The position numbers and the translations under genes are program-made. Of a stretch of 7,695 nt of DNA, positions 1 to 7,695 are shown piece after piece; position 1 is the first letter of the stretch; the number at the start of each line of letters is the position of its first letter. Below the pieces are notes generated by a model. The model worked only from the letters and a program-made list of their open reading frames with translations. It was not told the DNA's origin and did no database searches. The stretch is taken from contig CACYDL010000006.1 in the NCBI GenBank assembly GCA_902773195.1, positions 1-7,695 of the forward strand. The letters are read 5' to 3'. The stretch comes from an uncultured Lachnospiraceae bacterium (lineage in GTDB: Bacteria > Bacillota_A > Clostridia > Lachnospirales > Lachnospiraceae).

Positions 1-29
1 CATCGGATGGCGGTTGCCGTGAACATGGT

Positions 30-75
30 AATGGCCGGCCGTTCCGTTTGATACTACGCGGATCGGCCGGCCATT
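30..75. other. Long GC-rich hairpin beyond the 3' end of the isomerase gene
   Basis: A perfect 12-bp inverted repeat (AATGGCCGGCCG at 30-41, CGGCCGGCCATT at 64-75) encloses a 22-nt loop. The loop can form three more pairs (CCG 44-46 with CGG 59-61). It lies about 18 nt past the stop codon of the minus-strand isomerase gene. There is no T tract on either side, so it is not a classical intrinsic terminator. It may still act as a 3' stability structure or a weak bidirectional terminator. No gene is supported in 1-92. Confidence 0.5.
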
Positions 76-92
76 CTCATCACTGAGAAGAA

Positions 93-533
93 TTATCTTT
101 CGTTGTCATACTTTCTGAAGGCGTCAACCTTGTCCTGAGAGGCGCAGCCCGGGACAAACTCATTCGTCAGGAAGGCGCGCGTGAGCTCCTCGCGGACCTT
201 GCTTCCGATCGTGAAGGCGCCCATGCAGGCGATATTCGCGTCGTTGCTGAGGCGGGCCCTCTTCGCGGAATGGATATCGGAGATCAGAGCGGCGTAAGCG
301 CCCTTCACCTTGTTGGCCGAGATGGACACGCCGATTCCGGTTCCGCAGATCAGAATACCGCGGTCATACTCTCCGGCGGCCACGGCCTCCGCTACCTTGA
401 TGGATACGTTGGCGTAGATGGGATCTTCACTGCCGAAGTCTGTGACATCGCCCAGATTTTCTTTGGCGATGAAAGCCATCAGTTCTTCCTTTGCCTGCTG
501 CGCGTTGGGATCGCAGCCGATTGCGATTTTCAT
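93..533 (-). CDS. RpiB/LacA/LacB-family sugar-phosphate isomerase with altered active site
   Basis: This is a 146-aa cytosolic aldose-ketose phosphate isomerase of the RpiB/LacAB family, of usual length. The start is the ATG at 533, because AAAGGAGG sits 9 nt upstream; a longer in-frame start at 569 would place this site inside the coding region. The fold signature is clear: MKIAIGCD at the N-terminus and ICGTGIGVSISANKVKG at about 62-78, with the expected catalytic cysteine at C63. Several positions differ from RpiB as I recall it. The GCDH motif is GCDP (P9). The REHND ring-opening histidine region reads RLSND (94-98). The C-terminal arginine-rich phosphate-binding segment is replaced by PGCASQDKVDAF. 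The substrate is therefore probably not ribose 5-phosphate; a tetrulose or other ketose phosphate is possible but unproven. It is divergent from the SorC regulator and is likely part of the same locus. Confidence 0.9.
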   Translation of the reverse strand: MKIAIGCDPNAQQAKEELMAFIAKENLGDVTDFGSEDPIYANVSIKVAEAVAAGEYDRGILICGTGIGVSISANKVKGAYAALISDIHSAKRARLSNDANIACMGAFTIGSKVREELTRAFLTNEFVPGCASQDKVDAFRKYDNER

Positions 534-542
534 GGGTGTGGT

Positions 543-548
543 CCTCCT
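543..548 (-). promoter_or_regulatory. Ribosome binding site that fixes the isomerase start
   Basis: The minus strand reads AAAGGAGGAC here, a near-perfect Shine-Dalgarno sequence 9 nt before the ATG at 533. It selects that start over the in-frame upstream ATG at 569. Confidence 0.85.
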
Positions 549-574
549 TTGCGGCTGAAGTTTTATCACTCATT

Positions 575-603
575 AATATAGCATAGAACGGGTTTTTTTG
601 AAA
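575..603 (-). promoter_or_regulatory. Candidate promoter of the isomerase gene (extended -10)
   Basis: On the minus strand, TGCTATATT (583-575) is a good extended -10 element. The hexamer 17 nt upstream, TTTCAA (603-598), is a poor -35. Transcription would start near 568, giving a leader of about 35 nt. The opposite-strand TATACT at 604-609 could be a -10 for the SorC gene, but no convincing -35 accompanies it. Confidence 0.45.
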
Positions 604-621
604 TATACTTGCAGGCATTAA

Positions 622-638
622 CGGGAAAAGAAATCCCG
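622..638. promoter_or_regulatory. Inverted repeat, possible operator in the divergent promoter region
   Basis: CGGGA (622-626) and TCCCG (634-638) form a perfect dyad with a 7-nt A-rich spacer, midway between the divergent isomerase and SorC genes. A SorC-type regulator usually binds next to its own gene, so this is a candidate site. The dyad is short and could be chance. Confidence 0.3.
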
Positions 639-658
639 AAGAGCGGAGCTTTCGTCTG

Positions 659-689
659 ATAATCTGATACCGGAGGGAGCGCAGATTAT
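659..689 (+). promoter_or_regulatory. Hairpin enclosing the SorC regulator's ribosome binding site and start
   Basis: ATAATCTG (659-666) and CAGATTAT (682-689) are perfect 8-bp inverted repeats. The 15-nt loop contains the Shine-Dalgarno GGAGGG (672-677), and the downstream arm includes the first two bases of the ATG at 688. In RNA this could limit translation initiation; in DNA it could be an autoregulatory operator. TCTGATA is also directly repeated at 655-661 and 663-669. Confidence 0.4.
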
Positions 690-1644
690 GGATAAGAATC
701 TCTACATTAAAATTGCCTACTGGTACTATCACCGGGGCCTGACCCAGGATGAGATCGCCAGACGCCTGTCCCTGACCCGGCAGAAGGTGAACCTGATCAT
801 CAAGTCCCTCGTCGACCTGGACATCGTGACGATCACCGTCCACGGCTATGAGCAGAACGAGGTCGAGCTGGAATGTGAGATCGAGCAGGCCTTCAGCCTG
901 GACAAGTGCATCGTGGCGTCAGATTACGGGGAGAAGGAAGCCGCTTTTTACAAGGTGATGAACGTCGCGGCCCAGTACCTGGACTCCGCGATCCGCCAGG
1001 GGGCGAGCGTCGGCATGTCCTGGGGGCGGTCCCTGGCCGAGACCGTCAAGCAGATGAACTACCACAAGCGCAGCGACTGCACCGTCGTCCAGCTGATGGG
1101 CGCCCAGAACATCGACCAGAAGCGGGAGAAATCCGACGAGCTCGTCAGGGGCCTGGCCAACAAGCTGGACTGCGCGAGCTTCATGCTGTACGCTCCCGTG
1201 ATCGTCATGCACGCCCAGACCAAGAAATGGCTGATGAAGGAGAGGAATTTCCGCCAGTGGCAGGAGCAGATCCGGCACTGCGACGTGGCGATTCTCGGGA
1301 TCGGCGAGCTCACGGAAACCGCCACGATGTGCACCCGCGGCTTCATCACGAAGGAGGAAATCCGCCTGCTCCGCAGGGAAGGCTTCGTGGCGGATCTGTG
1401 CATGAATCCGCTGAGGCCCGACGGGAGCAGCGACGGGTGCCCGATCAGCGACCGGCTGATCACGGCGGGCATGGACTGCCTGCGGGACATCCCGGAGACC
1501 ATCGCGGTCGCGGTCGGGGAGCAGAAGGTGGCTTCCATCGCCGCCGCGCTCCGCTCCGGCTGCATCAATACCCTCATTACAGACGTGACGACGGCGCGGC
1601 TTCTGATGGAGAAGCAGACGAAAACCCGGACGGCGCGGAAATGA
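688..1644 (+). CDS. SorC/DeoR-type sugar-binding transcriptional regulator
   Basis: This 318-aa protein has the full length and layout of SorC-family regulators. The N-terminal helix-turn-helix covers roughly residues 15-50 (LTQDEIARRLSLTRQKVNLIIKSL region). A sugar-phosphate-binding domain related to GlcN6P isomerase fills about 60-312. Family hallmarks are visible: GMSWGR at 109-114 (usual GVSWG), ILGIGEL in the middle, and AVAVGEQK at 273-280 followed by the NTLITDVTTARLLME ending. Known members (SorC, DeoR, CggR, EryD) respond to phosphorylated sugars and control adjacent catabolic genes, so it probably controls the downstream kinase operon and the divergent isomerase. The start is supported by GGAGGG 10 nt upstream. 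The effector is unknown. EryD-type regulation is one option given the neighbouring kinase and RpiB-like isomerase, but this is inference. Confidence 0.92.
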   Translation: MDKNLYIKIAYWYYHRGLTQDEIARRLSLTRQKVNLIIKSLVDLDIVTITVHGYEQNEVELECEIEQAFSLDKCIVASDYGEKEAAFYKVMNVAAQYLDSAIRQGASVGMSWGRSLAETVKQMNYHKRSDCTVVQLMGAQNIDQKREKSDELVRGLANKLDCASFMLYAPVIVMHAQTKKWLMKERNFRQWQEQIRHCDVAILGIGELTETATMCTRGFITKEEIRLLRREGFVADLCMNPLRPDGSSDGCPISDRLITAGMDCLRDIPETIAVAVGEQKVASIAAALRSGCINTLITDVTTARLLMEKQTKTRTARK

Positions 1645-1717
1645 CGCCGCCGAAGAAGGACGGAACGGCAGGGTGACCCGGCCGGGGGAGACAGGAGCTG
1701 CAGGACGACCCAGCCGC

Positions 1718-1723
1718 AGGAGG
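1718..1723 (+). promoter_or_regulatory. Ribosome binding site that fixes the kinase start
   Basis: AGGAGG lies 9 nt before the ATG at 1733. It selects that start over the in-frame GTG at 1673, which has no such site and would add 20 arginine-rich residues before the conserved N-terminus. Confidence 0.85.
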
Positions 1724-1732
1724 CGGCAGAAA

Positions 1733-3277
1733 ATGAAGTATCTGATTGGAATTGACGCCGGAACGACGAACGTCAAGGCGGTCCTGTTCAACGAGACGGG
1801 AGAGGAGATCGGCACCGCCAGCCGGGAGAACGAGACATTTCAGGACAGCGCGAACCGCGCGGAGCAGGATATGGAGGCGGTCTGGGAACACGCCAGGGCG
1901 TGCCTCTCGGAGATCGCGTCCCGGTTTCCAAAGGAATGCGCGGACCTGCTGGCCATCGGAGTCACCGGCCAGGGAGAGGGCTTCTGGGCCATCGATGAGG
2001 AAGGGAAGCCTCTGCAGAGGGCCATCCTGTGGCGGGACGGCCGTGCCGTCGAGGAGGTAAAGGAACTCACGGAGGTGCATCCGGAGATCGGAAAGCTGTA
2101 CCACGACGTGACGGGCACCCCGCCCCTCACGGGGAATCAGATGATTCTGACCAGGTGGATGCTGGCGAACCGCCCGGACGTCCTCGACAGGGTGTGGAAG
2201 GTGCTCTTCTGCAAGGACTGGATCCGCTACCGGATGACCGGGGAGATTGCCGCGGACGTCACGGACAGTCTGACGTCCCTTCTGGACGTGCAGACCTACG
2301 CCCTGGCGGACCGGGTGCTCGAGGCGCTGGCCCTCACCAAATACAGGGACATCTTCCCGAAGCCTCTCCGGCCGGACGAGAGGGCCGGCACCCTGAAGGA
2401 CGAGCTCGCCGACGAGATGGGATACCCGCGGGGCATACCGGTCATCGCCGGCGCGCTGGACACCTCGGCCACGATGATCGGGCTCGGCGCGATTCACGCC
2501 CGGAGCGCGGCGGTCATCCTCGGCACGACCTGCGCCTGCGAGGTGGTCTTCGACAAGGAGGACTGCCGGTTCGGGGAGGGCATGACGCGCTATGAGAAGC
2601 ATCCGATCGGCGATCTCTTCGTCAATCTCCAGCCCACGAACAACGGGACGCCGAACATCGACTGGATGCTGGATACCATCAGCCCCACCAGGGATTTCAA
2701 CGAGATCGACAGGATCGTGGACGCCGCCCCGGTGGGCAGCAGCGGGGTCATCTATCTTCCCTATATCGGGGTATCCGGGGAGAGGGCTCCCTTCTATCAC
2801 CCCTACGCCCGGGCGGAATTTTTCGGAATGAGCCTGGTCACGACGAGGGAGGACCTGATCCGGGCGGTCTACGAGGGAATCAGCCTGTCCATCCGCGACT
2901 GCCTGGAGGAGATCGGCGCGAAGGGCACCGTGTATCTGGCGGGCGGCGGCGCCAAGAGCCCCGTGTGGTCCCAGATGATCGCGGACGTCTGCGGCTGCGA
3001 GGTGAAAATTCCCTCCGGCAACGAGCAGGGGGCCAAGGGAGCGGCGCTGATGGCCGGCGTGAGCCTGGGGCTCTACCGGGATTACGACGACGCCGTGGAG
3101 AAGGCATGCTCCTTCCGGCACGTCTACCATCCGGATCCCCTCCGCGCGAAAGAGTACGATCTGATCTACAGGCTGTACCGCAAGCTGAGGGAACACAACG
3201 CGGAGGTGTGGAACCTGAGGCATCAGATCAACAAGCAGCTGAAACAGCACAGAATGACATACGGCAAGGAGGACTGA
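1733..3277 (+). CDS. FGGY-family carbohydrate kinase
   Basis: This 514-aa cytosolic ATP-dependent sugar or polyol kinase has the usual length for the family. The N-terminus MKYLIGIDAGTTNVK carries the phosphate-1 loop of the actin-like fold. GVTGQGEGFW follows at about 76-85, with the substrate-contacting pattern W100-x-D102-x-R104. GALDTSATMIGLG has D243 in the position of the catalytic base. The C-terminal FGGY signature GGGAKSPVW begins at 404. Family members phosphorylate xylulose, L-xylulose, ribulose, glycerol, erythritol and others, and I cannot assign the substrate. The GQGEGFW region and the regulator/isomerase neighbours fit an L-xylulose-like or tetritol kinase better than glycerol kinase. 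It starts 88 nt after the regulator, and its last codons contain the ribosome binding site of the next gene, so the two are translated from one mRNA. Confidence 0.93.
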   Translation: MKYLIGIDAGTTNVKAVLFNETGEEIGTASRENETFQDSANRAEQDMEAVWEHARACLSEIASRFPKECADLLAIGVTGQGEGFWAIDEEGKPLQRAILWRDGRAVEEVKELTEVHPEIGKLYHDVTGTPPLTGNQMILTRWMLANRPDVLDRVWKVLFCKDWIRYRMTGEIAADVTDSLTSLLDVQTYALADRVLEALALTKYRDIFPKPLRPDERAGTLKDELADEMGYPRGIPVIAGALDTSATMIGLGAIHARSAAVILGTTCACEVVFDKEDCRFGEGMTRYEKHPIGDLFVNLQPTNNGTPNIDWMLDTISPTRDFNEIDRIVDAAPVGSSGVIYLPYIGVSGERAPFYHPYARAEFFGMSLVTTREDLIRAVYEGISLSIRDCLEEIGAKGTVYLAGGGAKSPVWSQMIADVCGCEVKIPSGNEQGAKGAALMAGVSLGLYRDYDDAVEKACSFRHVYHPDPLRAKEYDLIYRLYRKLREHNAEVWNLRHQINKQLKQHRMTYGKED

Positions 3278-3284
3278 AGCTGTC

Positions 3285-4322
3285 ATGAAAATCTTTTTTT
3301 CGGCAGAGTATGACGAGAAGGAACTGACGCCGCTCTATGAACTGGGAGAGGTGGACAAGCAGGGATGGGCGCTGGGCCTTCCGAAATTCAGCGAGGAGGA
3401 GCTCGCGGAGAAGACGAAGGACGCGGACATCATCATCACCAGCTACGACGACATCACCAGAAAGGTGATCGAGGGAGCGCCCAACCTCCGCCTGATCGCC
3501 TGCACCAGGGCGACGCCGGTCAATGTGGACATACAGGCGGCGAAGGAGAGGAACATTCCCGTCCTCTACACGCCCGGCAGAAACTCGGACTGCACGGCGG
3601 AGATGACCATCGGCCTGATGCTGGCGGTGGCCAGGAACATTCCCCAGGCGTACAGCGCCCTCAAATCCGGCAGGTACACGGCGGATCCCGGGGCGAAAAA
3701 GGAGGAGACCCACGAGGGTCTGCGCAGGGACGTGATCTGGGACATGACGATGGAGTCCCCCTACATGGTTTTCAAGGGCACCCAGCTCAAGGGCAAGACC
3801 CTGGGCATCCTGGGATACGGCAGCATCGGCCGCCGCGTCGGCCGGATCGCCAGGGCGATCGGCATGGAGCTTTTGATCTACGACCCGTACGTGGGAGAGA
3901 TCGACGTCGAGGAGTTCGGCGTGAGGAAGGTGGAGAGCGTCGCGGACCTGATGAAGGAATCGGATTTCGTGACCTGCCACATGAAGGTCACCCCGGAGAC
4001 GACGGGCATCGTCAGCCGGGAGATGATCGCGCTGATGAAGCCGACGGCCTATTTCATCAACGCCTCCAGAGGAGCGATCCTGGACGAGGAGGCGCTGATC
4101 GACGCGCTGCGGGAGAAGAGGATCCGCGGGGCGGCCTTCGACGTCTACGCCAGCGAGCCCATCCGCAGCAACCATCCGTACATCACGGAGCTGGACAACG
4201 TCGTCATCACGCCGCATATCGCCGGCGCCACGGAGGACGTGCTGGTGAACCACACCAGGATGATCGTCGCCGACGTGAAGCGCTTCCTGAGAGGGGAGCA
4301 CATGCTCTATCAGTACCGGTGA
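3285..4322 (+). CDS. D-isomer-specific 2-hydroxyacid dehydrogenase
   Basis: This 345-aa NAD-dependent oxidoreductase belongs to the PGDH/D-lactate dehydrogenase superfamily. The split substrate domain is at about 1-110 plus the C-terminus, and the Rossmann domain covers about 165-300. The dinucleotide loop is G177-x-G179-x-x-G182. D200 at the end of the second strand favours NAD over NADP. The catalytic set is complete: R262 (NASRGA), E291 (ASEP) and H311 (TPHIAG). It starts 7 nt after the kinase stop, with AAGGAGG 12 nt upstream inside the kinase gene. An extended charged and aromatic segment at about 130-168, before the Rossmann domain, looks longer than in standard phosphoglycerate dehydrogenase. 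In this operon it would reduce a 2-keto acid or oxidise a 2-hydroxyacid derived from the sugar. Serine biosynthesis is less likely, because there is no ACT domain and no ser genes nearby. Confidence 0.93.
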   Translation: MKIFFSAEYDEKELTPLYELGEVDKQGWALGLPKFSEEELAEKTKDADIIITSYDDITRKVIEGAPNLRLIACTRATPVNVDIQAAKERNIPVLYTPGRNSDCTAEMTIGLMLAVARNIPQAYSALKSGRYTADPGAKKEETHEGLRRDVIWDMTMESPYMVFKGTQLKGKTLGILGYGSIGRRVGRIARAIGMELLIYDPYVGEIDVEEFGVRKVESVADLMKESDFVTCHMKVTPETTGIVSREMIALMKPTAYFINASRGAILDEEALIDALREKRIRGAAFDVYASEPIRSNHPYITELDNVVITPHIAGATEDVLVNHTRMIVADVKRFLRGEHMLYQYR

Positions 4323-4330
4323 GGAGAACC

Positions 4331-4978
4331 ATGGAGAAAAAGAAGATCAGGCTGATCATTTTTGATATGGACGGCGTCGTGCTGAACAGCGAGCCCTTCC
4401 ACGAGAACGCCAGGCAGGCGATGTTCCGCCGTCTGGGCATCAGGGAGACGGAGGATTTCCCTGAGCCGGTGGGAACCTCCGCCAGCGGCTACTGGCGGCA
4501 GGTGCTGGCGCAGCAGGGACTGACGGGCGATCCCGTCAGCCTCCAGCAGGAGCAGTATCAGCGGGTCGAGGACCAGATCCGGGAGAACCGGCTGGGGCCC
4601 TCGGACGGTCTGCTGGAGGTGTTCGACTGGGCGAGGGCGAACGGCATGAAGATCGGGCTGGCTTCGTCCAGCACCCAGCCGCTGGTCGATCACACGCTGG
4701 AGCTGGTGAATGTCGGGAAATACTTCGACTATGTGGTCTCCGGCGATCAGGTGCCCCGCAAAAAACCGGACCCGGAGATCTACCTCCGGGTCATGGAGAT
4801 GGCCGGCAGCGGTCCCGACGAGACCATCGCCGTGGAGGACACGGCGGCGGGCATCGAGTCCGCCCGCGGCGCGGGGATCTTCTGTTTCGGGTATGACAAC
4901 GAGACCTCGGGACCCCAGGATCTCTCCCGCGCCAGCAGGGTGATCCGGAATCTCAGGGAGGTCATGGACGCGGTGTGA
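4331..4978 (+). CDS. HAD-IA family phosphatase (beta-phosphoglucomutase-like)
   Basis: This 215-aa protein has all four HAD motifs. Motif I is FDMDGVV, with nucleophile D12 and acid/base D14. Motif II is LASSS, with the Ser at 112-114. The motif III lysine lies in KKPDPEIY (K144/K145). Motif IV is EDTAAGIESA (E169, D170). A helical cap of subfamily-I type occupies about 17-85. It would hydrolyse a small phosphorylated metabolite or, less likely, act as a phosphomutase, since the cap sequence PVGTSASGYW is not the usual beta-phosphoglucomutase one. The ATG at 4331 is 8 nt after the dehydrogenase stop. Its GAGGAG ribosome binding site overlaps that stop, with a short 4-nt spacing, so translation is probably coupled. 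It is the last gene of the operon, and I see no intrinsic terminator in the 46-nt gap after it. Confidence 0.9.
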   Translation: MEKKKIRLIIFDMDGVVLNSEPFHENARQAMFRRLGIRETEDFPEPVGTSASGYWRQVLAQQGLTGDPVSLQQEQYQRVEDQIRENRLGPSDGLLEVFDWARANGMKIGLASSSTQPLVDHTLELVNVGKYFDYVVSGDQVPRKKPDPEIYLRVMEMAGSGPDETIAVEDTAAGIESARGAGIFCFGYDNETSGPQDLSRASRVIRNLREVMDAV

Positions 4979-5024
4979 GGAGACGGGAAAGCGTCAGGAC
5001 TCCGTATGGGCAGGCCTGCGGCGG

Positions 5025-6050
5025 TCAGCGCAGCTTCCGGAGCTCCCGGTACACCGCGGAGACCGGCAGCCCGACCACGTTGGCGTAGTCCCCGTTGATT
5101 TTTTCGACGAACGCCGCGAAGGGGCCCTGGATCCCGTAGGCTCCCGCCTTGTCCATGGGCTCGCCGCTCTCGGCGTAAAGCAGTATTTCTTCCTCCGTCA
5201 TCGGCGCCACGCGGACCTCGGTCCGCACGGCAAAGGTGACGGTTTCTTTCTGTCTGCCGGCGTCTTCCGCCCGTATGATCGTGACGCCGGTCATCACCTC
5301 GTGGGTTTTTCCCTGGAGCGCCCGGATCATCTCCGCCGCTTCCTCGTGGGAGCGGGGCTTTCCGAGGATTTTTCCGTCCAGGACGACCACGGTGTCCGCT
5401 CCGAGGATCGTCTCGCCGGAATGGAACTGCCGGGCGACGTCCTCCGCCTTCTGCCGGGAGAGGCCCTTGACGATTTCCTCCGGCGAACGGCCCTCGATCA
5501 CTTCCTCCACCCCGCTCGGAAGAACGGCGGGATCCATGCCGATCTGGTGAAGCAGCTCCCTCCTTCTGGGGGAGGCGGACGCCAGGATCAGAGGCGGGAG
5601 CAGATGCGAGGAGACGAGGGCGTCGTTTTCGTCGTAATGGAGGCGCAGATGGAAAAAGCTCCGGTCCTCCAGCAGATAGTTCAGAAAAATGCGGTCGCCC
5701 TCCCAGAGGGGAAGCGTGAAGACCCGGTCCTTCGGAATCCAGGCAAGATCCCCCTCGCTGCACTCGGCAAGATCCCCCTCAAAGGAATCCGAGGTGTAGA
5801 GATACATGGCCTCGTCCTCCCACCTGTCGCTGACGAAATCGACGACGCCGCGGAGCTTCACGTCCAGAAGGCGGAGTCCCGTCTCCTCCGTGACCTCGCG
5901 CCGGACACATTCCTCCGGAGATTCCCCCGGTTCCACATGGCCGCCGACCCCGATCCATTTTCCCTCGTTGAGGTCATTCTTTTTCTTGGTTCTGTGCAGA
6001 AGAAGATAGGCTCCTTCGTGTTCGATGTAGCAGAGCGTTGTGTCAGTCAT
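5025..6050 (-). CDS. maf: NUDIX hydrolase-Maf nucleotide pyrophosphatase fusion
   Basis: Two complete nucleotide-sanitising enzymes lie in one 341-aa chain. Residues 1 to about 138 form a NUDIX domain with a perfect box, G37-x5-E43-x7-R51-E52-V-x-E55-E56-x-G58-L59. The start TLCYIEHEGAYLLLHR resembles 8-oxo-dGTP diphosphatases of Clostridia. Residues 153-341 form a Maf domain with SASPRR (158-163), GADTVV (217-222, presumed active D219), K231-P232, DKAGAYGIQG (300-309) and GDYANVVGLP (320-329). The AGAYGIQG form is typical of the dTTP/UTP pyrophosphatase type (YhdE) rather than the YceF type, from memory. The product probably removes damaged or non-canonical nucleotides. GGGAGG lies 6 nt before the ATG. 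The frame is continuous through the joint, with no sign of a sequencing artefact. It is convergent with the sugar operon and functionally separate. Confidence 0.93.
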   Translation of the reverse strand: MTDTTLCYIEHEGAYLLLHRTKKKNDLNEGKWIGVGGHVEPGESPEECVRREVTEETGLRLLDVKLRGVVDFVSDRWEDEAMYLYTSDSFEGDLAECSEGDLAWIPKDRVFTLPLWEGDRIFLNYLLEDRSFFHLRLHYDENDALVSSHLLPPLILASASPRRRELLHQIGMDPAVLPSGVEEVIEGRSPEEIVKGLSRQKAEDVARQFHSGETILGADTVVVLDGKILGKPRSHEEAAEMIRALQGKTHEVMTGVTIIRAEDAGRQKETVTFAVRTEVRVAPMTEEEILLYAESGEPMDKAGAYGIQGPFAAFVEKINGDYANVVGLPVSAVYRELRKLR

Positions 6051-6070
6051 GTCCGTCCTCCCGGCCGTTT

Positions 6071-6240
6071 CCCGTGCCGCTGTTATTCCGATGCCGGATC
6101 CTTGCGCCGCTGTTCAGACGCGGCGTCCGTGTCTCCGTTATTCCGAGGCAGTATCCCTGCACCGCTGTTCAGACGCGGTGTCCGTGCCCGCCGTAATTCC
6201 GATGCAGTATCCTTACGCTGCCGCTGTCCTTTCGCGGCAG
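6071..6240. repeat. Three tandem hairpin-bearing units of 55-60 nt
   Basis: Units lie at 6071-6125, 6126-6180 and about 6181-6240. They share a [CT]CCGTG start, an ATTCCGAtGCaGtATCCtT-like middle and a terminal hairpin with a 9-nt loop. The stems are CGCCGC/GCGGCG (6105-6125), CACCGC/GCGGTG (6160-6180) and CTGCCGC/GCGGCAG (6218-6240). Stem positions change in matched pairs (G-C to A-T, C-G to T-A), which suggests selection for the folded form. The array would be transcribed in the 5' leader of the NUDIX-Maf mRNA if the promoter at 6266-6294 is correct. I recognise no known RNA family. Confidence 0.7.
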
Positions 6241-6265
6241 ACGGCCCTTCTGAATTCCACGGAAC

Positions 6266-6294
6266 AGTGTACATGGAGAATCGGAATCCGTCAA
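6266..6294 (-). promoter_or_regulatory. Candidate promoter of the NUDIX-Maf gene
   Basis: On the minus strand, TTGACG (6294-6289) and TACACT (6271-6266) are separated by exactly 17 nt, a good housekeeping-sigma promoter. Transcription would begin near 6259, giving a leader of about 209 nt that contains all three hairpin units. Confidence 0.6.
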
Positions 6295-6400
6295 ATGCCC
6301 GCGGGTACGGACGCCGCTTCCGGGCGGCAGCGGGGGGGGGCCCTCCCGCGACCGGCAAAACGCGGGATCTTCGCGGCGGCGTTTTTTGGAAGAGCCGCCC
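6295..6400. other. GC-rich inter-promoter segment with a G9 run and nested inverted repeats
   Basis: This stretch between the two divergent promoters has no gene. It holds nine consecutive G at 6332-6340 and a perfect 7-bp hairpin, TCCCGCG (6344-6350) with CGCGGGA (6361-6367). A longer-range pairing, ACGCCGC (6311-6317) with GCGGCGT (6376-6382), leads into T at 6382-6387. On the plus strand it resembles a weak terminator that could shield the LacI promoter. Competing pairings (GGGCGGC 6322-6328 with GCCGCCC 6394-6400) make the true fold uncertain. Confidence 0.3.
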
Positions 6401-6429
6401 TTGTCGTTTCCGCGAAAATAGGGTATGAT
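6401..6429 (+). promoter_or_regulatory. Candidate promoter of the LacI-family gene
   Basis: TTGTCG (6401-6406) and TATGAT (6424-6429) are separated by exactly 17 nt, with 4/6 and 5/6 consensus matches. Transcription would start near 6436, giving an unusually long leader of about 238 nt before the LacI start codon. Confidence 0.65.
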
Positions 6430-6433
6430 GCAT

Positions 6434-6449
6434 ATGAAACGGGTTCCAT
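6434..6449. promoter_or_regulatory. Candidate LacI-family operator over the transcription start
   Basis: ATGAAACGGGTTCCAT is an imperfect palindrome of 16 bp (12 of 16 positions symmetric) immediately after the -10 hexamer. It resembles LacI/GalR-type operators and deviates from the cre consensus TGWAANCGNTNWCA at two defined positions. Its position would block transcription, so autoregulation by the adjacent LacI protein or control by CcpA are both plausible. Confidence 0.5.
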
Positions 6450-6471
6450 AAAGCGGGGCGGGGAGTGCCCG

Positions 6472-6641
6472 GGACGAAAAGCAGCGCAAAACAACGAACA
6501 GCGCGAGGCAAAAAGCAGGGCGAAACAACAAGCAGCGCGAAGCGGAAAGCAGCGCGAAGCAACGAGCAGCGCGGGGCAAAAAGCAGGGCGAAACAACGAG
6601 CGGCGCGGGACGAATACCACCGTGAAACAACGAGCAGCGCG
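6472..6641 (+). repeat. Ten tandem 17-nt repeats in the LacI-gene leader
   Basis: Ten contiguous units of exactly 17 nt run from 6472, with consensus about RRRCAANRAGCAGCGCG. The 9-nt core AGCAGCGCG is exact in units 4, 5, 6 and 10 and differs by one base in most others; unit 9 (6608-6624) is the most diverged. A partial eleventh unit may follow at 6642. Units 3 and 7, 4 and 8, and 2, 6 and 10 resemble each other most, so there is a weaker 68-nt (four-unit) super-period. From 6467 to 6614 the plus strand has no T. Because 17 is not a multiple of three, and T-free DNA cannot contain stop codons, the open frames here are a by-product and not evidence of a protein. Confidence 0.9.
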
Positions 6642-6673
6642 GGCGGAAGCGCCGCGCATCAGGGAGGACGGCC

Positions 6674-7654
6674 ATGGCCAGCATCAGGGATGTGGCGAAA
6701 AGAGCAAACGTCGGACCGGCGACGGTCTCGAGGGTGCTGAACAATTCCGGATACGTCTCGGAGGAGACCAGGAAGCGGATCGAGAAGGCGATCGAGGAGC
6801 TCAGCTACGCGCCGAACGAACTGGCCCGGAACCTTTTTAAGAAGCAGGCGGGCATCATCGCGCTGATCGTGCCGGATATCCGGCACCCGTTCTTCAGCGA
6901 GTTCGTCGGCTACGCCGAGGAGGAGCTGTTCCGGGCGGGCTACAAGGCCATGATCTGCAACGCCGCCCACAAGGACAACGTGGAGCAGGAATACCTGGAG
7001 ATGCTGGAGCGCCATATCGTCGACGGCATTATCACGGACATCCACACCCTGGACGTGGAGGTGTACAAGCAGCTGGACAAGCCCATCGTCGCCCTGGACC
7101 GCTATCTGGGCAAGAACATCCCGGTGGTTTCCGCGGACCACACGGAGGGCGGACGGCTCGCCGCCGAGCATCTGGCGGAGAACGGGTGCCGGAGGGTGCT
7201 GCACATCAGGACCCAGGAGATGTTCAAGGCGCCCTTCCAGGACCGCCACAGGGAATTCAGCCGCGTCATGAAGGAGAACGGGATCGAGGAGATTCCCTTC
7301 GAACTGGAGTCGAACCAGTTTTCCTTCAGATATTACAGGGAAGCGGTCCGCGGCATCTTTGACAGGGGCGTCGAGTTCGACGGCGTTTTCGGGGGCGATC
7401 TGCCCGTCATCGAGTGCATGAACGAGTGCAGGAGGCGGAACATCCGCATTCCGGAGGACGTCAGGCTGGTCGCCTACGACGGAACCCACGTGACGGACCT
7501 GACCGAGCCCAGGCTGACGGCGGTGGCGCAGCCGACCCGGGACCTCGCCCGCGAGACCGTGCGGGTGCTGCTGAACCGGGACGGGAGCGATGCGGCCGGG
7601 GAGCGCCACATCAAGCTTCCCGTCACGCTGAAAAAGGGCGGAACCACGCTGTAG
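6674..7654 (+). CDS. LacI-family transcriptional regulator
   Basis: This 326-aa full-length LacI/GalR regulator begins with a helix-turn-helix, SIRDVAKRANVGPATVSRVLNN (about 3-24). A hinge-helix region, PNELARNLF (about 47-56), follows. A periplasmic-binding-protein-like effector domain covers about 58-326, with IIALIVPDIRHPFF, VDGIITDI, PIVALDRY, IPEDVRLVAYDGT and the LTAVAQPTRDLARE ending. The YDGT segment reminds me of ScrR-type sucrose or fructan regulators of Firmicutes; this is a weak hint, not an assignment. The ATG at 6674 follows AGGGAGG by 6 nt. It is divergent from NUDIX-Maf and lacks partner genes in the window, so its targets probably lie past the right edge. Autoregulation through the site at 6434-6449 is plausible. 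Confidence 0.95.
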   Translation: MASIRDVAKRANVGPATVSRVLNNSGYVSEETRKRIEKAIEELSYAPNELARNLFKKQAGIIALIVPDIRHPFFSEFVGYAEEELFRAGYKAMICNAAHKDNVEQEYLEMLERHIVDGIITDIHTLDVEVYKQLDKPIVALDRYLGKNIPVVSADHTEGGRLAAEHLAENGCRRVLHIRTQEMFKAPFQDRHREFSRVMKENGIEEIPFELESNQFSFRYYREAVRGIFDRGVEFDGVFGGDLPVIECMNECRRRNIRIPEDVRLVAYDGTHVTDLTEPRLTAVAQPTRDLARETVRVLLNRDGSDAAGERHIKLPVTLKKGGTTL

Positions 7655-7695
7655 GAAAGAAGCGGGCCGGCCGCGCCGCCCCTTCCATTGGCCCC

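Follow-up and report, generated by a model that had tools for sequence, protein, structure and literature searches.

The stretch of DNA analysed here, which we call the window, comprises 7,695 nt from an uncultured Lachnospiraceae bacterium (assembly GCA_902773195.1, contig CACYDL010000006.1, positions 1-7,695, forward strand). It carries a LacI-family regulator gene on the plus strand (6674..7654) encoding a protein of 326 aa. This product matched 17 NCBIfam models, mostly named as LacI-family regulators and none of them above its curated cut-off, the best being the RbsR-type model NF047341. Domains PF00356, PF00532 and PF13377, precomputed for protein P0001, correspond to a LacI-type HTH and a sugar-binding domain. 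Among the best 120 of 3661 LacI relatives, the nearer ones (P0002-P0010) are 67-79% identical, and the named organisms are Dorea, Hespellia and Blautia, at 57-58% identity. The organism, Lachnospiraceae-like by these relatives, is probably a gut bacterium. Divergently from the LacI gene, on the minus strand, 5028-6050 encodes a single protein of 341 aa in which a Nudix domain is fused to a Maf nucleotide pyrophosphatase. The genes found between 102 and 4978 specify an RpiB-like isomerase, a DeoR/LsrR-type regulator, an FGGY kinase, a D-2-hydroxyacid dehydrogenase and a HAD hydrolase, a set that probably belongs to a sugar or sugar-alcohol pathway.

To locate control sites we scanned positions 6050-6720 for promoter consensus sequences. 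Two sites with 9 of 12 matches were found, one on each strand, against 0.1 expected in shuffled sequence. The plus-strand site (TTGTCG-17-TATGAT, 6401..6429) is the predicted promoter of the LacI gene, and the minus-strand site (TTGACG-17-TACACT, 6266..6294) is the promoter-like site of the Nudix-Maf gene. At the predicted transcription start of the LacI gene lies an operator-like site of the LacI family, TGAAACGGGTTCCA (6435..6448, plus strand), a near-palindrome which we take to be of the kind that LacI proteins bind. The pattern TGRAACSSGTTYCA has its sole match without mismatches in the window at 6435-6448, a result that is no independent test since the pattern was derived from that very site. 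Because the site coincides with the predicted start of the transcript, the LacI gene is likely autoregulated through it, presumably by repression. The occurrence of TGGAAACGATTCCA 61 nt upstream of the gene of a distant homologue (L002) is consistent with autoregulation, and the upstream DNA of the other 11 distant homologues contains no site clearly of the TGAAACGGGTTCCA kind. A Shine-Dalgarno-like sequence (AGGGAGG, 6661..6667, plus strand) ends 6 nt before the start codon at 6674.

A tandem array occupies 6466..6650 of the plus strand. It follows the predicted promoter and operator and precedes the Shine-Dalgarno sequence, which lies outside it, and the start codon. An earlier note on this DNA had described ten in-register 17-nt units separating a promoter from the start codon of the LacI gene, and this description was confirmed: ten units run from 6481 to 6650, each with 10-16 of 17 matches to the consensus GCAGCGCGAAACAACGA and without a single indel. 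All ten copies have C at position 2 of the unit and G at position 6. The edges of the array are degenerate, the unit preceding the ten (from 6464) having only 8 of 17 matches to GCAGCGCGAAACAACGA. Tandem Repeats Finder (TRF) scored the array at 122 for a period of 17, 215 for a period of 34 and 242 for a period of 68, and also returned a short overlapping row of period 10 (score 36). The self-match of the array is 0.63 at lag 17, 0.79 at lag 34 and 0.81 at lag 68, while the best self-match at lags 10 to 89 in 2000 order-2 simulations of the array was at most 0.55. By TRF and by simulation, then, tandem repetition in this leader is well above chance, as expected of a leader VNTR or minisatellite. 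Since the self-match is much higher at 34 than at 17 and little more at 68, the basic unit is better described as a 34-mer made of two alternating, related 17-nt halves. The 68-nt level adds almost nothing to this, so that the previously proposed duplication in 68-nt blocks of four finds little support: the match at lag 34 explains the one at lag 68.

The plus strand has no T for exactly 148 consecutive nucleotides (6467-6614), as had been noted before. The next longest stretch of the window without T measures 35 nt, and 1000 order-2 Markov simulations of the window produced none longer than 86 nt. Nevertheless, because a single T-free 17-mer has been copied, the absence of T in the array does not represent ten independent facts, and most of the run is explained by that copying. 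Outside the array, the LacI leader (60 nt) contains 7% T. The other leaders in the window have 11% (Nudix-Maf), 18% (lsrR) and 25% (rpiB), the last two values indicating that T-poor leaders are not general here. The spacer between lsrR and the FGGY kinase gene (1645-1732) has 2% T on its sense strand.

We then asked what bases appear where the copies differ, using tests that treat the copies as independent, which copies of an array are not, and that take base bias as absent. Under these assumptions T is rarer than the expected third, both among differences from the 17-nt consensus (2 of 36, p 8e-5) and among differences within the 34-nt classes (2 of 22, p 0.009). A cleaner contrast, changes of G to A (9 of 65) compared with those of C to T (1 of 45), gave p 0.045 for the 34-nt classes and 0.11 for the 17-nt consensus; the comparison of purine with C-to-T transitions gave p 0.003 for the 17-nt consensus and 0.12 for the 34-nt classes. 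The scarcity of T among the substitutions is a hint, short of proof, that U may be selected against.

A leader without U had been expected to pair poorly, and this holds for the array and fails for the leader as a whole. Of 96 overlapping coding windows as long as the T-free part, 94 fold more strongly than it does (-0.245 kcal/mol per nt for the T-free part, against a coding-window mean of -0.372), whereas the folding of the complete leader is no different from that of its dinucleotide shuffles (z -0.12). Most G runs in the array (37 of 46) are single, and six are of three or four. When the number of units was varied from 0 to 10 in the model, accessibility of the Shine-Dalgarno sequence ranged from 0.37 to 0.56 with no clear trend, and that of the start codon stayed at 0.67-0.69; an effect of leader length on translation via local structure is therefore not predicted. 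Given this flat response and the z value of the leader, explanations based on structure were set aside. Rfam, which would reveal a structured RNA leader of a known family, gave no match at the gathering score anywhere in the window.

In order to learn whether relatives share the array, we made use of the fact that some near relatives' proteins seem to have been called from a start codon too far upstream, in which case the extra N-terminal residues are translated leader. The closest relative among the best 120 of 3661, P0002 (79% identity), has the extension MMLLKRVPCKSMQKEQD ahead of the common start MASI. Its first residues, when back-translated, match window positions 6425-6447 with 2 mismatches in 23; even when 3 mismatches are allowed, no second place in the window matches, and 0.01 were expected by chance. 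The end of the -10 of the LacI promoter and the bases that follow, with the operator-like site, thus appear conserved upstream of the same gene in P0002, as read through its protein translation, and with the array lying downstream of them this supports the earlier assignment of the array to the leader of the LacI gene. From the -10 and operator to the start codon there are 17 codons (51 nt) in P0002 and 249 nt in the window, and these 198 additional nt come close to the length of the array (roughly 180 nt). The array thus seems to be an expansion that P0002 lacks, a reading taken from a translated protein; the longest contig behind this protein measures 2316 bases, and short-read assembly could in principle have dropped an array there. 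In P0008 (67% identity) an operator-like sequence can be read some 30 nt ahead of the start, with 2 mismatches at 6435-6451, and its statistics are weaker (3 window sites with up to 3 mismatches, 0.61 expected). Extensions of 1-72 residues occur in 16 of the best 120 relatives, a further 4 of the 120 falling outside the start motif used and yet having the usual start. Inspected by eye, the 16 extensions never contain this repeat in translation, and only those of P0002 and P0008 include a readable operator. Control sites thus seem conserved and the array not.

More distant comparisons were also made. LacI relatives in genome contigs amounted to 8 loci, all distant (22-34% identity). A search of the phylum around an Enterococcus genome gave a match in 26 of 61 genomes at E <= 1e-30 and, at the stricter E <= 1e-85, in 1 of 398, with 43% identity, so that neither reached a close relative. 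The upstream DNA of 12 distant homologues (22-43% identity) contains no comparable array; TRF rows were obtained only for L013 and L002, and both are different. The array seems lineage-specific, which fits recent growth by slippage or recombination.

The nearest known case appears to be the 5'-UTR VNTR of clbR, in the pks/colibactin island of E. coli, an octamer (ACAGATAC) whose 2-20 copies vary between strains and which precedes the gene of an activator (PMC7364221, PMC10924459). There, transcription starts 16 bp upstream of the repeats, and a reporter with 20 repeats gave a 2-fold higher signal than one with 5 (PMC7364221). The array described here is probably a leader minisatellite of that known kind, as the predicted layout is shared: in both cases the repeats lie between the transcription start and the start codon of a self-regulating regulator gene, within a divergent intergenic region in which the binding region of the regulator overlaps the start, with start, self-regulation and binding region all being predicted in our case. 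Unlike in clbR, the unit is not an octamer but a diverged, T-free sequence of 17/34 nt, and the protein is of the LacI type. In Mycoplasma hyopneumoniae, 144 tandem repeats were catalogued genome-wide in the 5' upstream regions of transcriptional units, and qPCR revealed differential expression among genes with variable repeat numbers (PMC5179023); repeats upstream of transcriptional units are common to both situations, genome-wide there and as two arrays in one window here. The promoter-spacing repeats of the phase-variable genes nadA, porA and hifA/B share the idea of control by repeat number, but as summarised in a review they change spacing or sites within the promoter (PMC3899988), while the present array begins only beyond its predicted promoter and operator. 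Judged by titles and abstract openings, our searches of the open-licence literature yielded no report of this array or of any T-free leader array.

We consider it probable that a minisatellite has grown inside the 5' leader of a LacI-family gene that is itself probably autorepressed, and that it is mostly tolerated, any function being modest. The starting point would have been a 17-mer without T, in a leader that was poor in T to begin with; its duplication would have given a 34-nt double unit, which slippage or unequal recombination would have expanded to five, with point changes since. Placed between the operator-like site and the Shine-Dalgarno sequence, the extra length spares promoter, operator and ribosome site, and would for this reason be tolerated. 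Whatever function there is may act, as with the VNTR of clbR, via transcription, the stability of the RNA or the length of the leader. Against this reading count the rarity of T among the substitutions, the higher T content of the rpiB and lsrR leaders, the weak folding of the array, and the fact that the leader of P0002 was read through a protein. The main competitor, which we regard as possible though clearly less likely, is a functional VNTR that works as a rheostat, the amount of the LacI autorepressor being set by a copy number that differs among strains or among cells, and the weakly structured leader free of U being under selection. It is favoured by the clbR-like position of the repeats and the 2-fold effect known there, the depletion of T among substitutions, the weak structure of the array, and the presence of a second array and a nine-G tract in the same intergenic region; it is weakened by the modelled accessibility of the Shine-Dalgarno sequence and start codon, which copy number leaves unchanged, by the seeming absence of the array in P0002, and by the divergence of the copies, from which we infer slower slippage than in perfect octamer VNTRs. 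In its fullest form we find this proposal doubtful: selection would then favour the absence of U from the leader in itself, the array would serve the LacI autorepressor of a gut bacterium as a hypervariable rheostat, growing and shrinking in 34-nt steps while being purged of U, and the second, 55-nt leader array and the G9 tract would make the leaders of both flanking genes variable.

Lower still we place the idea, raised for a protein in the earlier note, that the array offers many binding sites, be it to a small RNA or to a protein that binds DNA or RNA. Regular spacing and the invariant C2 and G6 would suit such a role, but the analysis gave it no positive support. Without T no palindrome containing A can exist, which excludes LacI-type dimer sites inside the T-free part, and perfect palindromes of 8, 10 or 12 nt are lacking from 6466-6643, so that dimer sites are not favoured. 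Moreover, 17 nt correspond to about 1.6 helical turns, and neighbouring units would face different sides of the helix. G exceeds C in the array (60 against 47), unlike in Rho sites. Nor did searches outside the window favour it: blastn of the leader gave no match in plasmid and phage records, and in viral contigs the unit pattern occurred in 2 stretches, as one isolated match each and not in tandem. We judged these to be chance, being single matches in what is apparently the same gene of two related contigs. P0002 had no relative in the viral contigs. The other roles suggested in the earlier note, a ribosome standby region and an R-loop-prone segment, likewise gained no positive support from the analysis, which bore on them only indirectly.

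A translated leader peptide or a genuine coding repeat is very unlikely. Open frames do cross the array on both strands, but with no T on the plus strand no stop codon is possible on either, and the frames through the T-free DNA are automatic. Besides, since 17 cannot be divided by 3, a given column falls on a different codon position in successive units, and the same columns are conserved regardless. The translations of two minus-strand frames had no relatives at E <= 1 among 141 and 106 word-sharing candidates, in a weak search that covered these two frames and compared them with called ORFs of similar length sharing short words. Least credible of all is an artefact of assembly: the record is possibly derived from a metagenome, but the copies differ by substitutions while keeping perfect register, and an identical LacI protein is present on a contig of 186 kb.

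If its copy number varies, the minisatellite would act as a VNTR in a leader and tune a regulator, in a Lachnospiraceae-like bacterium, a setting for which our searches of open-licence papers listed no report. Even if neutral, it could be used to mark strains, and it nicely illustrates how a minisatellite can arise in a leader between a pair of conserved control sites. The comparison with P0002 illustrates that over-extended protein calls can reveal the length of leaders in relatives for which no DNA is at hand.

The divergent intergenic region has further repeats. In the predicted leader of the Nudix-Maf gene TRF detected a second, unrelated tandem repeat (6072..6237, minus strand) of 55 nt in about 2.6-3 copies, so that an expanded repeat is present in each of the two divergent leaders. 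The 17-nt and 55-nt arrays were judged not to be homologous, as they share matches of only 7-8 nt. As RNA, the Nudix-Maf leader is somewhat more stably folded than shuffled versions of it (z -1.56). Runs of nine G occur elsewhere in slippage-prone, phase-variable tracts, and one such run is located at 6332-6340, between the two divergent promoters.
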